A stretch of 64,000 bases of DNA from Amycolatopsis sp. cg9. Lineage in GTDB: Bacteria > Actinomycetota > Actinomycetes > Mycobacteriales > Pseudonocardiaceae. The position numbers and the translations under genes were made by a program. The stretch lies in assembly GCF_041346945.1 (NCBI RefSeq), contig NZ_CP166850.1, positions 124,001 through 188,000 on the forward strand, in the 5' to 3' direction. Below, piece after piece: positions 17,123-56,243 of this stretch. The first letter of the stretch is position 1. Every line of letters begins with the position of its first letter. The notes beneath the pieces are model-generated. The model was not told the DNA's origin. It ran no database searches and saw only the letters and a list, made by a program, of their open reading frames with translations.

Positions 17123-17742
17123 CGCCCGCGACCGTGTTCGTCGTCGACGACCACCCGGTGGTCCGCGACGGCGTGACGCTGCTGCTGCGCTCGGACCCGT
17201 GCCTGCAGGTGGCCGGTTCGGCGGAGTCCGGGCGGGCGGCGATCCAGCGGGTCGCGCAGCTGCGGCCCGACCTCATCCTGCTCGACCTGCGGCTGCCGGA
17301 CATGCTCGCGCCCGAGGTGATCGCGGAGCTGCGGCACGTGCACCCGGCGGCGCGGATCGTGGTGTTCACCGCGCACGGCGACCACCAGGGCGTGCTGGCC
17401 GCGCTGGACTCGGGCGCGCACGGCTGCCTGCTCAAGGACGTCGCGGGCACCGACCTCGTGGCGGCGCTGCGGCGGGTGCTGCGCGGTGAACGCGTCGTCG
17501 ACCCGCGGATCCTGCCCGACGCGGGGCAGCGGTCGGACGCGCTGGCCCGCAGCGGCCTGACCCGCCGGGAGTACGAGGTGCTGCGGCTGGCCGCGCAAGG
17601 CCAGACGAACCCGGAGATCGCGGAGTCCACCGGGCTGGCGCGCAACACGGTGAAGACGTACCTGCAGTCGGCGCTGCACAAGCTGGGCGCGCGCAACCGG
17701 GTCGAGGCGATCGGCAAGGCGAGCGAAGCCGGGCTGCTGTGA
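17119..17742 (+). CDS. NarL/LuxR-family response regulator
   Basis: A 207-residue two-domain regulator. The receiver domain (about 4-120) has acidic residues in VVDDHPVVRDG, phosphoacceptor Asp56 in LILLDLRLPD, Thr in FTAHGD, and Lys in CLLKDV. The LuxR-type helix-turn-helix (about 145-200) reads LTRREYEVLRLAAQGQTNPEIAESTG, then ARNTVKTYLQSALHKLGARNR. GTG 17119 overlaps the kinase stop, so the pair is a translationally coupled two-component system. Targets are unknown; the divergent FAD/Fe-S oxidase is one possibility by position. Confidence 0.92.
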   Translation: MTPATVFVVDDHPVVRDGVTLLLRSDPCLQVAGSAESGRAAIQRVAQLRPDLILLDLRLPDMLAPEVIAELRHVHPAARIVVFTAHGDHQGVLAALDSGAHGCLLKDVAGTDLVAALRRVLRGERVVDPRILPDAGQRSDALARSGLTRREYEVLRLAAQGQTNPEIAESTGLARNTVKTYLQSALHKLGARNRVEAIGKASEAGLL

Positions 17743-46032: not shown

Positions 46033-47046
46033 GTGTTCGACGTACCCGTGCCCGACCCCGCCGCCCGCGCCGCCGCGCTGGAGCGGCTCGACGGCCTGGT
46101 CAAACCGCTCGGCGCGCTCGGCAAGCTGGAGGAGCTCGCCGCCTGGCTGTCGGCGGCGCACGGCAGCGTGCCACCGCGCCCGCTCGACGACGTCCGCGTG
46201 GTGGTCTTCGCGGGCGACCACGGCGTCTCGGCGCTCTCGGCGTACCCGCGCGAGGTCACCGCGGCGATGGTCCGGGTGTTCCTGGCGGGCAAGAGCGGCG
46301 TGAACGTGCTGGCGGCGCAGGTCGGCGCGAAGGTGCGGGTGGCCGACCTCGGCGTGGATTGGGACGGTTCGGACGTACCGGCCTCGGTGACGGCCCACAA
46401 GATCCGCCGCGGCTCGGGCTCGATCGACGTCGAGGACGCCCTGGCCCCGGGCGAAGCGCGGGCAGCGTTCGAGGCGGGCCGCGCGATCGCCGGCGAAGAA
46501 GGCGACGCGGACCTGCTGATCCCGGGCGACATGGGGATCGGCAACACGGCGGTGTGCGCGGCGGTCGTCGCGGCTTCGCTGGGCCTGCCGGCGGCCGAGG
46601 TGGTCGGCACGGGCACGGGCGTGGACGCGGCGGGCCTGTCTCGGAAGACTTCGGCGGTAACGGCAGCTTTGTCGCGGGCCGCCGGCCGCGTCGAAGACCC
46701 GTTCGACCGCCTGACGACGCTGGGCAGCGCGTGCCTCGCGGCGACGGCGGGCTTCCTGGTCGAAGCGGCCCTCCGGCGCATCCCGGTCCTGCTGGACGGC
46801 GTGTTCTCCGGCGCGGCGGCCCTGGTCGCGCGGGACATCGCGCCGGGGGCGGAGCAGTGGTGGCTGGCCGGGCACCGGTCGACGGAACCGTCGCAGGCGT
46901 TCGCGCTGAAGGCACTGGGGCTGGAACCGATCCTGGACTTCGGGCTGAGGCTGGGCGAAGGCAGCGGCGCGGTACAGGCGGTGCCGGCGCTGCGAGCGGC
47001 GCGGGCGATCCTGGCGGACATGGGCCTGCTGGCGGACCTGGCGTGA
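46033..47046 (+). CDS. cobT: Nicotinate-nucleotide-dimethylbenzimidazole phosphoribosyltransferase
   Basis: The 337-residue enzyme activates 5,6-dimethylbenzimidazole as alpha-ribazole phosphate. Recognisable motifs are LDGLVKPLGALGKLEELAAWL, VVVFAGDHGVSALSAYPREVT, PGDMGIGNTAVCAAV, GTGTGVDAAGL, and the catalytic glutamate in LRLGEGSGAVQAVP near the C-terminus. The substrate base is probably made by BluB, encoded at 58 kb. GTG 46033 follows CTGGAGGCGCC. A 315-bp repeat-rich stretch separates it from cobS. Confidence 0.96.
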   Translation: MFDVPVPDPAARAAALERLDGLVKPLGALGKLEELAAWLSAAHGSVPPRPLDDVRVVVFAGDHGVSALSAYPREVTAAMVRVFLAGKSGVNVLAAQVGAKVRVADLGVDWDGSDVPASVTAHKIRRGSGSIDVEDALAPGEARAAFEAGRAIAGEEGDADLLIPGDMGIGNTAVCAAVVAASLGLPAAEVVGTGTGVDAAGLSRKTSAVTAALSRAAGRVEDPFDRLTTLGSACLAATAGFLVEAALRRIPVLLDGVFSGAAALVARDIAPGAEQWWLAGHRSTEPSQAFALKALGLEPILDFGLRLGEGSGAVQAVPALRAARAILADMGLLADLA

Positions 47047-47060
47047 AGCCGGCCCGAGGC

Positions 47061-47113
47061 GCGCCCGGGCCGGGCACACGCCCAGGCCGGGCACCACGCC
47101 CGAGCCGGGCTCC
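47061..47113. repeat. Three imperfect tandem repeats of about 18 bp
   Basis: Units at 47061-47077, 47078-47095 and 47096-47113 share the core CGCCC(A/G)(G)GCCGGGC. They start 15 bp after the cobT stop codon. Confidence 0.5.
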
Positions 47114-47141
47114 GCGCGTGCGGCGGTCGGCGCGGCAGCGA

Positions 47142-47196
47142 GGTCGCGAATGACTCATTCGGGACGTCCCAGGTCGCGAATGAGTCATTCGCGACC
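47142..47196. repeat. Two palindromic repeat units (GGTCGCGAATGA type)
   Basis: The unit at 47172-47196 is a perfect palindrome: GGTCGCGAATGA, one central base, TCATTCGCGACC. The unit at 47142-47166 is the same with two changed bases in the right arm. Degenerate copies occur at 29.1-29.3 kb. They lie between cobT and cobS and could act as transcription terminators or as protein-binding sites. Confidence 0.8.
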
Positions 47197-47283
47197 ATCG
47201 GGCGACCGTCGACCCGGCCCACACGACTCGCTCCGCTCCCGCGAAACGGCTGCGGCACCGGAGGCCAGGCCTCCGCGCCCCAA

Positions 47284-47346
47284 GGCGGCCTTGGCTGCGT
47301 CGCACGCGCCCAAGGCCGCCTTCGGTGCGTCTCACGCACCGAAGGC
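47284..47346. repeat. Two adjacent hairpin repeats (CCAAGGCCGCC type) before cobS
   Basis: GGCGGCCTTGG (47284-47294) pairs with CCAAGGCCGCC (47310-47320), and GCCTTCGGTGCGT (47318-47330) pairs with ACGCACCGAAGGC (47334-47346). Both enclose very small loops and share the GCCGCC boundary, so they are alternative or stacked hairpins. They end 15 bp before the cobS start codon and no ribosome-binding site is evident there. Confidence 0.75.
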
Positions 47347-47361
47347 CACATTGGGGCGCTC

Positions 47362-48096
47362 ATGAGCCGCTGGGTCGACTCCGCGCGGCTGGCCGTCGGC
47401 ACCCTCACCACCATCCCGGTCCCGGCGCCGCGCGTCATCGACCGCCGCACAGCCGGCGGCGCCATGCTCCTCGCCCCGATCGCCGCCGTTCCCCTGGCCC
47501 TCGCCGCCGGGCTCGTCGTCGCCGCCGGCCACGCACTCCACCTCCCCACCCTCGCCACCGCCGCCCTCGCCATCGGCGCCGTCGCGCTCGGCAGCCGCGG
47601 CCTCCACCTGGACGGCCTCGCCGACACCGCCGACGGCCTCGGCGCCTCCTACGACCGCGCCAAAGCCCTCGACGTCATGCGCCGCGGCGACGCGGGCCCC
47701 ACCGGCGTCGCCACCCTCGTCCTCACCCTCCTCGTCCAAGCCGGCGCCCTCACCGACCCGTACTCAGCGTTCGCCGCCGTCCTCATCGGACGGTGCACGC
47801 TCTCCATGTCCTGCGCGAAAGGCGTCCCCTCCGCCCGCCCGGAAGGCCTCGGCGCGACCGTCGCGGGCTCGGTCCCCCGCACCGCCGCGATCGCCGTCGG
47901 CCTGGCCGCGGCCGCACTCGCCACGCTGCTGCCCGGCCTCACCTGGTGGCGCGGACCGCTCGCCGTGCTCCTCGCCTACGGAGTCACCGCCCTCCTCCTC
48001 AAACGGTGCACGACCAGGCTCGGCGGCATCACCGGAGACGTCCTCGGTGCCGGGGTCGAGGTCGCCGTCGCGGCCGCGCTGCTCGCGCTCGCCTGA
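47362..48096 (+). CDS. cobS: Adenosylcobinamide-GDP ribazoletransferase (cobalamin synthase)
   Basis: The 244-residue membrane protein joins adenosylcobinamide-GDP and alpha-ribazole (phosphate). Family signatures are LHLDGLADTADGLGASYDRAKALDVMRRGDAGPTGV near residues 82-117 and GGITGDVLGAGVE at the C-terminal end. About seven hydrophobic segments fit CobS. The gene runs in the same direction as cobT but is separated from it by repeat DNA, so coupling may have been lost. Confidence 0.95.
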   Translation: MSRWVDSARLAVGTLTTIPVPAPRVIDRRTAGGAMLLAPIAAVPLALAAGLVVAAGHALHLPTLATAALAIGAVALGSRGLHLDGLADTADGLGASYDRAKALDVMRRGDAGPTGVATLVLTLLVQAGALTDPYSAFAAVLIGRCTLSMSCAKGVPSARPEGLGATVAGSVPRTAAIAVGLAAAALATLLPGLTWWRGPLAVLLAYGVTALLLKRCTTRLGGITGDVLGAGVEVAVAAALLALA

Positions 48097-54211: not shown

Positions 54212-55363
54212 GTGCGCGAAAAATCACGGTTGACGGTGGTGGGGATCGGAGCTGACGGGTGGTCCGGCCTGTCGGAGCAAGCCCAAGCACTCGTCCTCGG
54301 CGCCGACGTCGTGCTGGGCGCGCCGAGGCAGCTCGCGTACCTGCCGCCGGAGGTCGGCGGGGTGCCCTGGCCGTCGCCGCTGCTGCCCGCGCTCGACGCG
54401 TTCATCGCGGAGCACGAAGGGCAGCGGATCTGCGTCCTGGCCAGCGGGGATCCGTTTTTGTCGGGGGTCGGCACTACCCTGGTGGCACATGGATACGAGG
54501 TCGACGCGTTCCCCGCGCTCTCGTCGGTGACACTGGCCCGGGCCCGACTGGGCTGGTCCGCCGAAGAGACCGAGGTGGTGACGATCGTCGGCCGCTCGTC
54601 GGCCCGGGTCGCCCGGGTGCTGGCCCCGCGGCGGCGGGTGCTCGTCCTGGGTGCCGACGCACCGGCTCTGCGCTCCCTCCTCACCGTGCGGGGGTATGGC
54701 GAGAGCGAGCTGTTCGCGCTGGAGAACCTGGGCGGCCCCGAGGAGCGCATCACCGACGGCTGGGCCGGCGAACCCGGCCCGCTGACGGTGTTCGCGCTGA
54801 CGTGCGTGGGTCCGGCGCTGCCCCTGATCGGCATCCCGGACGACGTGTACGCCCACGACGGCCAGCTGACGAAGCGCGACCTGCGGGTTTCGGCCCTGTC
54901 GAGGCTCGCGCCGAGCCCCGGCGAGCTGCTGTGGGACGTCGGTGCGGGCGCGGGCAGCGTCGGCATCGAGTGGTCGCGGCTGCACGGGCTGAACCGGGCG
55001 GTCGCGATCGAGCGGGACGCGGAACGCGCGGAGCGGATCGGCCGCAACGCGGTGGACCTGGGAGTACCGGAGCTGGAGGTGGTGACGGGAGAGGCACCGG
55101 AGGTGCTGGGCGCGCTGCCCGCCCCGGACGCGGTGTTCATCGGCGGCGGGGTGACGGTGCCGGGAGTGCTGGCGACCTGCGTGGCCACGGGCGCACGCGT
55201 GGTGGCGCACGGGGTGACGATGGAGGCGGAGCAGGTGCTGGCGAGGGCGTACGAGGAGCACGGCGGTGAACTGGTGCGGATCGGGGTCGAGCGAGCGGCC
55301 CCGCTGGGCGGCTTCACCGGCTGGACACCGGCCCGGGTCGTGACGCAGTGGAGCAGCCGATGA
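54212..55363 (+). CDS. cobL: Precorrin-6Y C5,15-methyltransferase (decarboxylating)
   Basis: The 383-residue fused enzyme carries out two methylations and a decarboxylation. The N-terminal CobE-like methylase (about 6-190) has VVGIGADGWSGL, VLASGDPFLSGVG and EVVTIVGRSS. The C-terminal CbiT-like SAM domain (about 225-383) includes LLWDVGAGAGSVGIEWSRLH and AVAIERDAERAERI. Its end (WSSR) coincides with the first copy of a 16-bp sequence that recurs at the cobM start, an odd junction described below. GTG 54212 is the start. Confidence 0.95.
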   Translation: MREKSRLTVVGIGADGWSGLSEQAQALVLGADVVLGAPRQLAYLPPEVGGVPWPSPLLPALDAFIAEHEGQRICVLASGDPFLSGVGTTLVAHGYEVDAFPALSSVTLARARLGWSAEETEVVTIVGRSSARVARVLAPRRRVLVLGADAPALRSLLTVRGYGESELFALENLGGPEERITDGWAGEPGPLTVFALTCVGPALPLIGIPDDVYAHDGQLTKRDLRVSALSRLAPSPGELLWDVGAGAGSVGIEWSRLHGLNRAVAIERDAERAERIGRNAVDLGVPELEVVTGEAPEVLGALPAPDAVFIGGGVTVPGVLATCVATGARVVAHGVTMEAEQVLARAYEEHGGELVRIGVERAAPLGGFTGWTPARVVTQWSSR

Positions 55364-55366
55364 CCG

Positions 55367-55488
55367 CGCCCCGCCCCAGCGGGCCGAAGGGGACTTTCCT
55401 CCCACCGGACGCGACGAAAGCGCCCTTCAGCTCATGTCATGCGCTGAAAGCGCCCTTCAGCACGAGCCAGGAGAGCAGCCGATGACCG
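55367..55488. repeat. Small repeat-bearing insert between cobL and cobM
   Basis: GAGCAGCCGATGACCG occurs at 55351-55366 (cobL end and ATGA) and again at 55473-55488 (cobM start). The 106 bp between them carry two exact copies of GAAAGCGCCCTTCAGC (55416-55431 and 55446-55461), a palindrome-like GAAGGGGACTTTCC (55385-55398), and no gene. The layout looks like a small non-coding element with a 16-bp target duplication. Confidence 0.6.
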
Positions 55489-56243
55489 TGCACTTCATCG
55501 GGGCCGGGCCGGGGGCCGCCGATCTCATCACCGTGCGGGGGCGGGATCTGCTCGCCCGCTGCACCGTCTGCCTCTACCCCGGCAGCATGACCCCGCCCGA
55601 CCTCCTGCGGTACTGCCCGCCCGAGGCCGAGCTCGTCGACACGGCGAACCTCGCGCTGGAAGCGATCGTCGCGAAGCTCGTCGAAGCCCATCGCGGCGGG
55701 CACGAGGTCGCGCGGCTGACGTCCGGCGATCCTTCGCTCTACAGCGCCGTCGCCGAGCAGATGCGCCGGCTCGACGCGGAAAACGTGCCGTACGCGGTCG
55801 TCCCCGGCGTACCCGCCTTCGCCGCATCGGCCGCCGTCCTCCAGCGCGAGCTCACCGTGCCCGAAATCGGGCAGAGCCTGGTCATCACGCGGGTCCAGGC
55901 GCGCTCCACGAAGATGCCGCCGGGCGAAACGCTCGCCGCCTTCGCCGCCACCGGGGCGACGCTCGCGCTGCACCTCGCGATCAACCACGTCGAGCGGGTG
56001 GCCGGGGAACTCGTCCCGCACTACGGCGCCGGCTGTCCGGTCGCCGTCGTCGCGCTCGCGACCCAGTCCGGGGAAACCGTCGTGCGCGGGGTGCTCGGCG
56101 ACCTCCCCGCCCTCGTCCGGGAAGCCGGGATGACCCGCGCGGCCACGATCTTCGTCGGGCGGGTGCTCGGCGCCACGAACTTCCCCGACAGCTTCCTCTA
56201 CTCGAGTGCCCGGGACCGGGCGGACCAACCGGAGTCGTTGTGA
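55482..56243 (+). CDS. cobM: Precorrin-4 C11-methyltransferase
   Basis: A 253-residue tetrapyrrole methylase: VHFIGAGPGAADLITVRGRDLLARC at the start, LTSGDPSLYSAVAEQMRRLD near 87, VPGVPAFAASAAVLQREL, and RAATIFVGRVLG. It methylates C11 of precorrin-4 in the aerobic route. ATG 55482 follows CCAGGAGA. Its end overlaps the oxidoreductase gene by GTGA. The region in front has an insert that separates it from cobL. Confidence 0.95.
   Translation: MTVHFIGAGPGAADLITVRGRDLLARCTVCLYPGSMTPPDLLRYCPPEAELVDTANLALEAIVAKLVEAHRGGHEVARLTSGDPSLYSAVAEQMRRLDAENVPYAVVPGVPAFAASAAVLQRELTVPEIGQSLVITRVQARSTKMPPGETLAAFAATGATLALHLAINHVERVAGELVPHYGAGCPVAVVALATQSGETVVRGVLGDLPALVREAGMTRAATIFVGRVLGATNFPDSFLYSSARDRADQPESL

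Follow-up and report, generated by a model that had tools for sequence, protein, structure and literature searches.

Mycobacterial interspersed repetitive units (MIRUs), reportedly described by Supply et al. in 1997, are the closest known kind of element to the inserts described here. The review PMC12548453 describes MIRUs as entering at start codons, where a 4-nt overlap then couples them. In PMC10666635, a spacing of about 20 nt almost abolished coupling in six native gene pairs, and distances from -8 to +10 nt are treated as predictive of coupling. Other constructs kept coupling at +25 nt or lost it gradually from +50 to +350 nt (reviewed in PMC12548453), and the distance rule of coupling is therefore disputed.

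The locus lies in a window of 64,000 nt, meaning the whole stretch of DNA analysed, in the 10.6-Mb genome of Amycolatopsis sp. cg9. The genes, ORFs, and 16-bp repeat copies of the window given below with both end positions are on the forward strand. Two neighbouring genes, which we take by position and homology to be cobL and cobM, both tetrapyrrole methylases (PF00590), are separated there by an insert. The cobL gene (54212-55363) matches PF00590 and its product ends with ...WSSR, the stop codon being inside an ATGA. The cobM gene (55482-56243, PF00590) is an in-frame part of a longer ORF at 55434-56243, with the start set by comparison. A 16-bp repeat, GAGCAGCCGATGACCG, is present at 55351-55366, where it spans the cobL end, the cobL stop and the start of an ORF hereafter called the bridge, and again at 55473-55488, where it covers the bridge stop and the cobM start and has an SD-like AGGAG at its 5' edge. 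The copies are 106 nt apart and can be extended to 24 nt at 88%. Duplicated units between them, pointed out in the preliminary description, are two exact copies of GAAAGCGCCCTTC (55416-55428 and 55446-55458), to which a third, diverged and inverted copy at 55386-55398 can be added. An array of about 84 bp with three 30-nt palindromic units (55381-55464, no strand assigned, borders by eye) lies within the bridge ORF. The 16-bp duplication and the insert, both reported before, are real and beyond chance, because the close relatives G025 and G048 have a single copy of the repeat and no insert, that is, an empty site.

The insert had been described as non-coding, which does not hold. It is crossed by an open frame of 41 codons (55360-55485), running from the ATG at 55360 in the first ATGA to the TGA at 55483-55485 in the second one and encoding the peptide MTAPRPSGPKGTFLPPDATKAPFSSCHALKAPFSTSQESSR. 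The gene order is thus cobL-ATGA-ORF-ATGA-cobM, and as the bridge ORF overlaps its neighbour by 4 nt at both ends, the architecture is that of termination-reinitiation. Rfam gave nothing above the gathering score for 55200-55700 of the window, the only hit being a sub-threshold Cis52_sRNA with 16 bits vs. 56, and folding of the insert RNA was not significant (z -0.33). Very short ORFs of 6 and 5 codons linked by NTGA between coding-like frames were also seen at 17739 and 5601 of the window, and these may be due to chance.

When 80 Amycolatopsis genomes were searched, 78 usable cobL/cobM junctions were obtained; G005 and G072 were left out for having weak matches only. The genes are joined by a direct NTGA overlap in 56 genomes and separated by an insert in 21, and one genome (G004) has neither form, its stop being a TAG followed by a gap of 12 nt. 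The inserts sit at the NTGA overlap, are 20-401 nt long and mostly unrelated in sequence, and fall into 17 homology groups. All 21 are crossed by ORFs chained via 4-nt NTGA overlaps up to cobM, CTG being accepted as a start in the chain tests. Nineteen bridges are single ORFs of 7-134 codons and two are double, with 23 and 21 codons in G040 and 15 and 60 codons in G077. A quick gene tree puts the changes of insert state at no fewer than ten, and even the well-supported sisters G069 and G047 differ, the former having a 68-nt insert and the latter an empty site. The alignment of these junctions across the genus, proposed in the preliminary description, thus revealed the empty-site form in G025, G048, and others. 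The direct ATGA join assumed there as the earlier state agrees with the commonest form (56/78), as judged by commonness.

Other cob junctions of the operon had been regarded as direct overlaps. This applies to cobM/oxidoreductase, oxidoreductase/cobK, and cobK/bluB, but not to cobU/cobT, which has a TAG stop and a short spacer, nor to cobT/cobS, which has an insert of 319 nt. The cobT/cobS junction (47043-47365) did not appear among the features first noted in the window, and has two chained ORFs with palindromic repeats. Its upstream gene is an ORF at 46033-47046, presumably cobT, in line with comparison. The first bridge ORF (47043-47153, 36 codons) has a GTG overlapping the cobT stop; the second (47150-47365, 71 codons) has ATGA at both ends and contains palindromic repeats, a tandem 30-nt unit, and predicted hairpins that are very strong. 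Downstream is cobS (47362-48096, PF02654). A strong fold is predicted for the cobT/cobS insert (z -8.08) but not, as given above, for the cobL/cobM insert, so structure is not common to both.

In the 78 genomes, cobT/cobS is direct in 38, bridged in 34, and neither in six. There are 30 single bridges, three double, and one triple; the inserts are 35-1002 nt long and form 10 homology groups, and the state changed at least nine times on the quick gene tree. If CTG starts are disallowed, 33 junctions are bridged and 35 direct, as such starts underlie one bridge (G058) and three of the direct junctions. The six remaining junctions comprise four short ones, G054, and G063. G054 counts as bridged, by an ORF of 86 codons whose overlap is longer, only under a looser test, used after the fact and on six exceptions only; G063 has a long and truly unbridged insert.

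A third junction, cbiB/cobQ, could be assessed in 55 of 64 genomes, with 49 direct forms, four bridges, and two long gaps after a TAG stop. Of these gaps, that of G065 is crossed by a bridge under the looser test and that of G062, with GGGAGG before cobQ, is not. Among the 78 genomes, cobM/oxidoreductase is an empty NTGA in 61, offset in start assignment in five, and missing in 12; oxidoreductase/cobK is empty in 13, offset by one or a few codons in 38, and missing in 27; and cobK/bluB is empty in 30, offset or cut by the locus end in five, and missing in 43. No inserts were seen by eye among the offset junctions of these three kinds. In G073, where the oxidoreductase is absent, a 34-codon bridge containing another palindromic repeat joins cobM and cobK. 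The 384 nt from cobM to cobK in G059 hold a chain of 74, 2, and 52 codons, which is a doubtful case and was not counted as a bridge. Outside the pathway, argC/argJ, argJ/argB, and the junction upstream of hisB, each represented by 30 loci taken from 60 genomes searched, had no inserts and were direct in 30/30 cases each (90/90). A crude and noisy scan of 20-kb loci for bridges outside cobM and cobS gave no excess, with 35 real cases vs. 38 and 31 mock ones. Growing junctions thus seem to be few and, as far as these controls and the scan reach, placed in cobalamin operons, and the proposed generality of bridges is kept to cob genes.

In the family outside Amycolatopsis, 40 genomes gave 37 usable cobL/cobM junctions. 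Direct overlaps were present in 29 and bridges in five (G080, G088, G089, G094, and G190); G106 has a long unbridged insert with GGAGG, one junction is of another short form, and the doubtful G100 was set aside. Bridge counts for other genera omit chains passing through real cobM, cobO, or cobS, the G100 rows, and those rows of cobT/cobS whose starts are uncertain (G093, G098, G111, G119, and G161). Bridges thus turn up again and again, at different junctions and also outside the genus.

The insert is, with good probability, a translational bridge, and selection for stop-start coupling would force grown junctions to stay translated. A ribosome would end cobL at the first ATGA and re-initiate on the overlapping ATG, translate the 41-codon frame, whose peptide would be irrelevant, stop at the second ATGA, and re-initiate on cobM. 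The junction would have grown by duplication of the stop-start region including the start site, with repeat DNA taken in later, and growth would be kept only where the frame as a whole remains open and finishes precisely at the next start codon, coupling thereby being preserved. Bridges were found in 21/21 inserts at cobL/cobM vs. 5.6 expected with random lengths, in 34 genomes at cobT/cobS vs. 5.3 expected likewise, and in four at cbiB/cobQ. From these patterns we infer that ribosomes follow the bridge path and that selection removes the loss of coupling. Whether a sequence-free rule applies to actinobacterial cobalamin operons, by which any DNA may grow between coupled genes if one ORF, or several linked in series, crosses it and ends on the next start, is evenly balanced between belief and doubt.

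Start signals differ between the two downstream genes. No SD-like 4-mer precedes cobS in 37/38 direct forms and in 31/34 bridged ones, so initiation on cobS should depend on coupling. Before cobM, an SD-like 4- or 5-mer is present in 20/21 bridged and 54/56 empty forms, and cobM could thus also start alone and may depend less on coupling. The clear unbridged inserts are those of G063 (cobT/cobS), G062 (cbiB/cobQ), and G106 (cobL/cobM, other genus). A purine-rich SD-like stretch was seen by eye upstream in these three and in G004, and at the clear unbridged inserts it would fit selection on the ribosome path. Against the translational bridge are the own SD-like stretch of cobM, the unbridged inserts, the constructs that tolerate longer spacing, and three bridge pairs with low pN/pS. 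The 12.5/21 bridges reached by shuffled letters at the actual lengths, the absence of an excess in the 20-kb scan, and the insert-free arg and his junctions weigh on the same side.

Translation protects RNA from Rho-dependent termination, and it is possible, though on balance doubtful, that the frame is kept open because translating ribosomes shield the spacer RNA from Rho, the exact overlaps being secondary. The inserts are GC-rich and, with up to 1002 nt, long enough for this to matter, and any translation would protect them. Shielding, however, needs no exact NTGA at both ends, and the chain test was passed by 21/21, 34/36, and 4/6 long inserts at cobL/cobM, cobT/cobS, and cbiB/cobQ, respectively; inserts of only 20-56 nt obey the rule as well. 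Rho protection and coupling may also both be at work together.

As to how the junctions grew, the 12 nt upstream of the second NTGA at cobL/cobM are identical to those upstream of the first at 8.9 positions, with 3.6 expected by chance, and the sequences downstream of the two NTGAs at only 4.3, with 3.4 expected. The signal is weaker at cobT/cobS, with 5.6 vs. 3.8 upstream and none downstream. As the likeness is mainly upstream, the cobL end was probably duplicated together with its SD-like stretch and the stop-start overlap. The 16-bp repeat of the window would accordingly reflect duplication of a start site and not of an insertion target, and both copies are probably needed, one to end cobL and the other to start cobM. 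Duplication of the junction is legible by eye at cbiB/cobQ of G040, with the peptide MSGLFTAGTMSGVAR, and at chl/cobO of G102 (L234), which has two nearly identical 24-codon ORFs in series. In Paractinoplanes pyxinae (L355, 9557-9956), cobL/cobM has tandem 99-bp units, each made of a cobL end and a cobM start, and the array is read through as one ORF of 141 codons. Two further duplicated junctions, also read by eye, consist of tandem micro-cistrons, in which each unit ORF has its own stop-start overlap: at cobM/cobK of G083 (L221), 17-nt units form an array of 6-codon ORFs, and the final one reads into the start of cobK, and cobU/cobT of G122 (L248) has 14-nt units with three ORFs of five codons and one of 10.

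The palindromic repeat of the window insert, with 30-nt units of the GCTGAAGGGGAC-TTTC type, is dispersed in the genome (e.g., L002-L038), which fits the small repeat element of the preliminary description, and its unit pattern has 78 exact matches genome-wide vs. one for a reversed-pattern control. The cobL/cobM bridges of G069 and G030 (L098 and L067) have palindromic repeats of other families, namely the GTGAGTGTTTATG and GTGAGTGAGAAACAG types. The dispersal and the empty sites in G025, G048, and other relatives speak for insertion of a mobile repeat at cobL/cobM that duplicated 16 bp of its target, a behaviour ascribed to MIRUs. In 22 other repeat loci, a subset of the genome copies with three units in 18, two in three, and one in a single locus, flanking direct repeats exceeded the maximum of their own random-position control in 0/22, and again in 0/22 when the array borders were better set; the 10-nt flanking repeat of L007 merely equals its control maximum. 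Moreover, the 16-bp copies do not adjoin the repeat array, and unrelated inserts in relatives are bracketed by the same start-site duplication. A mobile origin with target duplication is thus unlikely, and the non-coding mobile element originally proposed was rejected in view of the open frame, the 0/22 flanked copies, the unrelated inserts, and the upstream-biased duplication. Replication slippage, given there as the second option, or a junction duplication fits better. Within the framework of a duplicated junction the dispersed repeat would then have entered the window insert, an order of events that we infer.

With respect to the peptides, pN and pS were computed for 24 hand-picked and partly overlapping bridge pairs. 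When pooled, the pairs of 45 nt or longer whose DNA identity exceeded 68% gave pN 0.232, pS 0.293, and a ratio of 0.79, while the ratio for cobM in 11 pairs was 0.14 (0.034/0.241). Purifying selection of the kind expected for a functional small protein was accordingly not seen in the pooled bridges. Single values of all 24 pairs range from 0.44 to 1.38. In 11 bridge pairs of at least 70% identity with a cobM comparison, 17 of 19 indels were multiples of three, which in pairs with one indel is demanded by the frame rule itself. The G+C contents by codon position are 0.72/0.79/0.81 in cobL/cobM bridges and 0.73/0.70/0.74 in cobT/cobS bridges, vs. 0.74/0.52/0.93 in cobM. Above the Pfam cut-off, there was no match for the three window bridge ORFs, nor for any of eight Amycolatopsis bridge peptides (0/8); a Pentapeptide_4 hit below the cut-off in one repetitive peptide and a weak DUF7857 hit in another were the only traces. 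The bridges appear to keep the frame and hardly the peptide, whose drift looks nearly neutral.

The same slot is occupied by a real gene elsewhere. Of 80 named loci, 76 were usable for cobL/cobM, with 26 direct, 40 chained, five long other, and five short other forms; three of the chained loci, L319, L326, and L338, were left out as they repeat the already counted G078, G037, and G080. In 28 of the 40 chained loci (within L344-L397), an ORF of CobE size, 109-136 codons, lies upstream of cobM and overlaps at both ends. These rows were sorted by size and by motifs by eye, and the one tested by Pfam matched CbiG_C (PF01890, 2e-28). In L372, the CobE-like sequence is in two pieces between cobL and cobM. 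Eight other chained loci remain, including Streptoalloteichus hindustanus, Paractinoplanes, Geodermatophilus, and three rhizobia with 10 codons. A real gene in one phylum and what appears to be filler in another therefore share this position.

It is accordingly conceivable, although very unlikely, that the bridge ORF encodes a genuine small protein that evolves fast, or is what is left of cobE, the gene between cobL and cobM in many Proteobacteria. The 28 loci with the same slot and the same double overlap, the CbiG_C domain of the tested one, and the pN/pS below 0.5 in three of the 24 bridge pairs point that way; the lack of Pfam matches for the three window ORFs, the mostly non-homologous and, when pooled, near-neutral inserts, the bridges being without coding-type GC periodicity, and a slot that is empty in 56 of the 78 Amycolatopsis point the other way. 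A degenerate cobE as the identity of the bridge was rejected, with no domain found by Pfam. That GC-rich DNA has few stops and open frames across inserts are unremarkable is hardly credible: shuffled letters at the actual lengths do bridge 12.5/21 cobL/cobM and 10.2/34 cobT/cobS inserts, but this count takes the frame-preserving lengths as given, random lengths bridge only 5.6/21 and 5.3/34 (shared descent being ignored in all four figures), and the 30 single cobT/cobS bridges (2556 codons) have 35 and 27 stops in the other forward frames, so stops are not rare there, vs. none in the bridge frame, by definition.

If the translational bridge is correct, ribosomes are relayed through one to several throw-away cistrons, some of them of five to six codons in tandem, and the bridges would let evolution itself put coupling to the test. 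It is usually argued from reporters, which disagree on the spacing that coupling tolerates, whether overlapping stops and starts persist for the sake of coupling or of genome compactness. Repeated unrelated growth with the relay kept and the peptide nearly free would separate selection on the ribosome path from selection on the product, and empty-site sisters, such as G047 for G069, make up a natural set of variants. The bridges suggest a steady supply of translated random sequence and could be a nursery, in which random DNA kept translated might become new genes. They are also a warning that such frames should not be annotated as proteins, nor such spacers as non-coding.

In the literature covered, which included few subscription papers, MIRUs and Rickettsia palindromic elements (RPE) were found as relatives, and nothing on unrelated frame-locked bridges at the same junctions. 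The cob inserts, like MIRUs as described, sit at an NTGA overlap and have an ORF overlapping both neighbours. A MIRU, however, is described as a mobile repetitive element, and the cob inserts, likened to it by description, are mostly unrelated between species, with several types of palindromic repeats; they are not copies of one element (17 groups at cobL/cobM and 10 at cobT/cobS), but junction duplications and tandem expansions, and there were no target duplications at the 22 other repeat copies. The cobE gene of Proteobacteria resembles the bridges in its place between cobL and cobM and in its double overlap, and differs in the conserved CbiG_C domain of the one tested, the tested actinobacterial bridges being without such a domain. 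RPE (PMC10969869) likewise keep the frame and are tolerated within translated sequence, as are the repeats of the cob bridges, but they are inside host proteins and have a conserved peptide, whereas the cob bridges are between genes and their peptide is nearly free. The termination-reinitiation described for NTGA overlaps (PMC10666635 and PMC6728339) involves the same 4-nt overlap as each link of a bridge; the published pairs link two genes (PMC10666635), and the cob bridge adds an apparently product-free frame between them.
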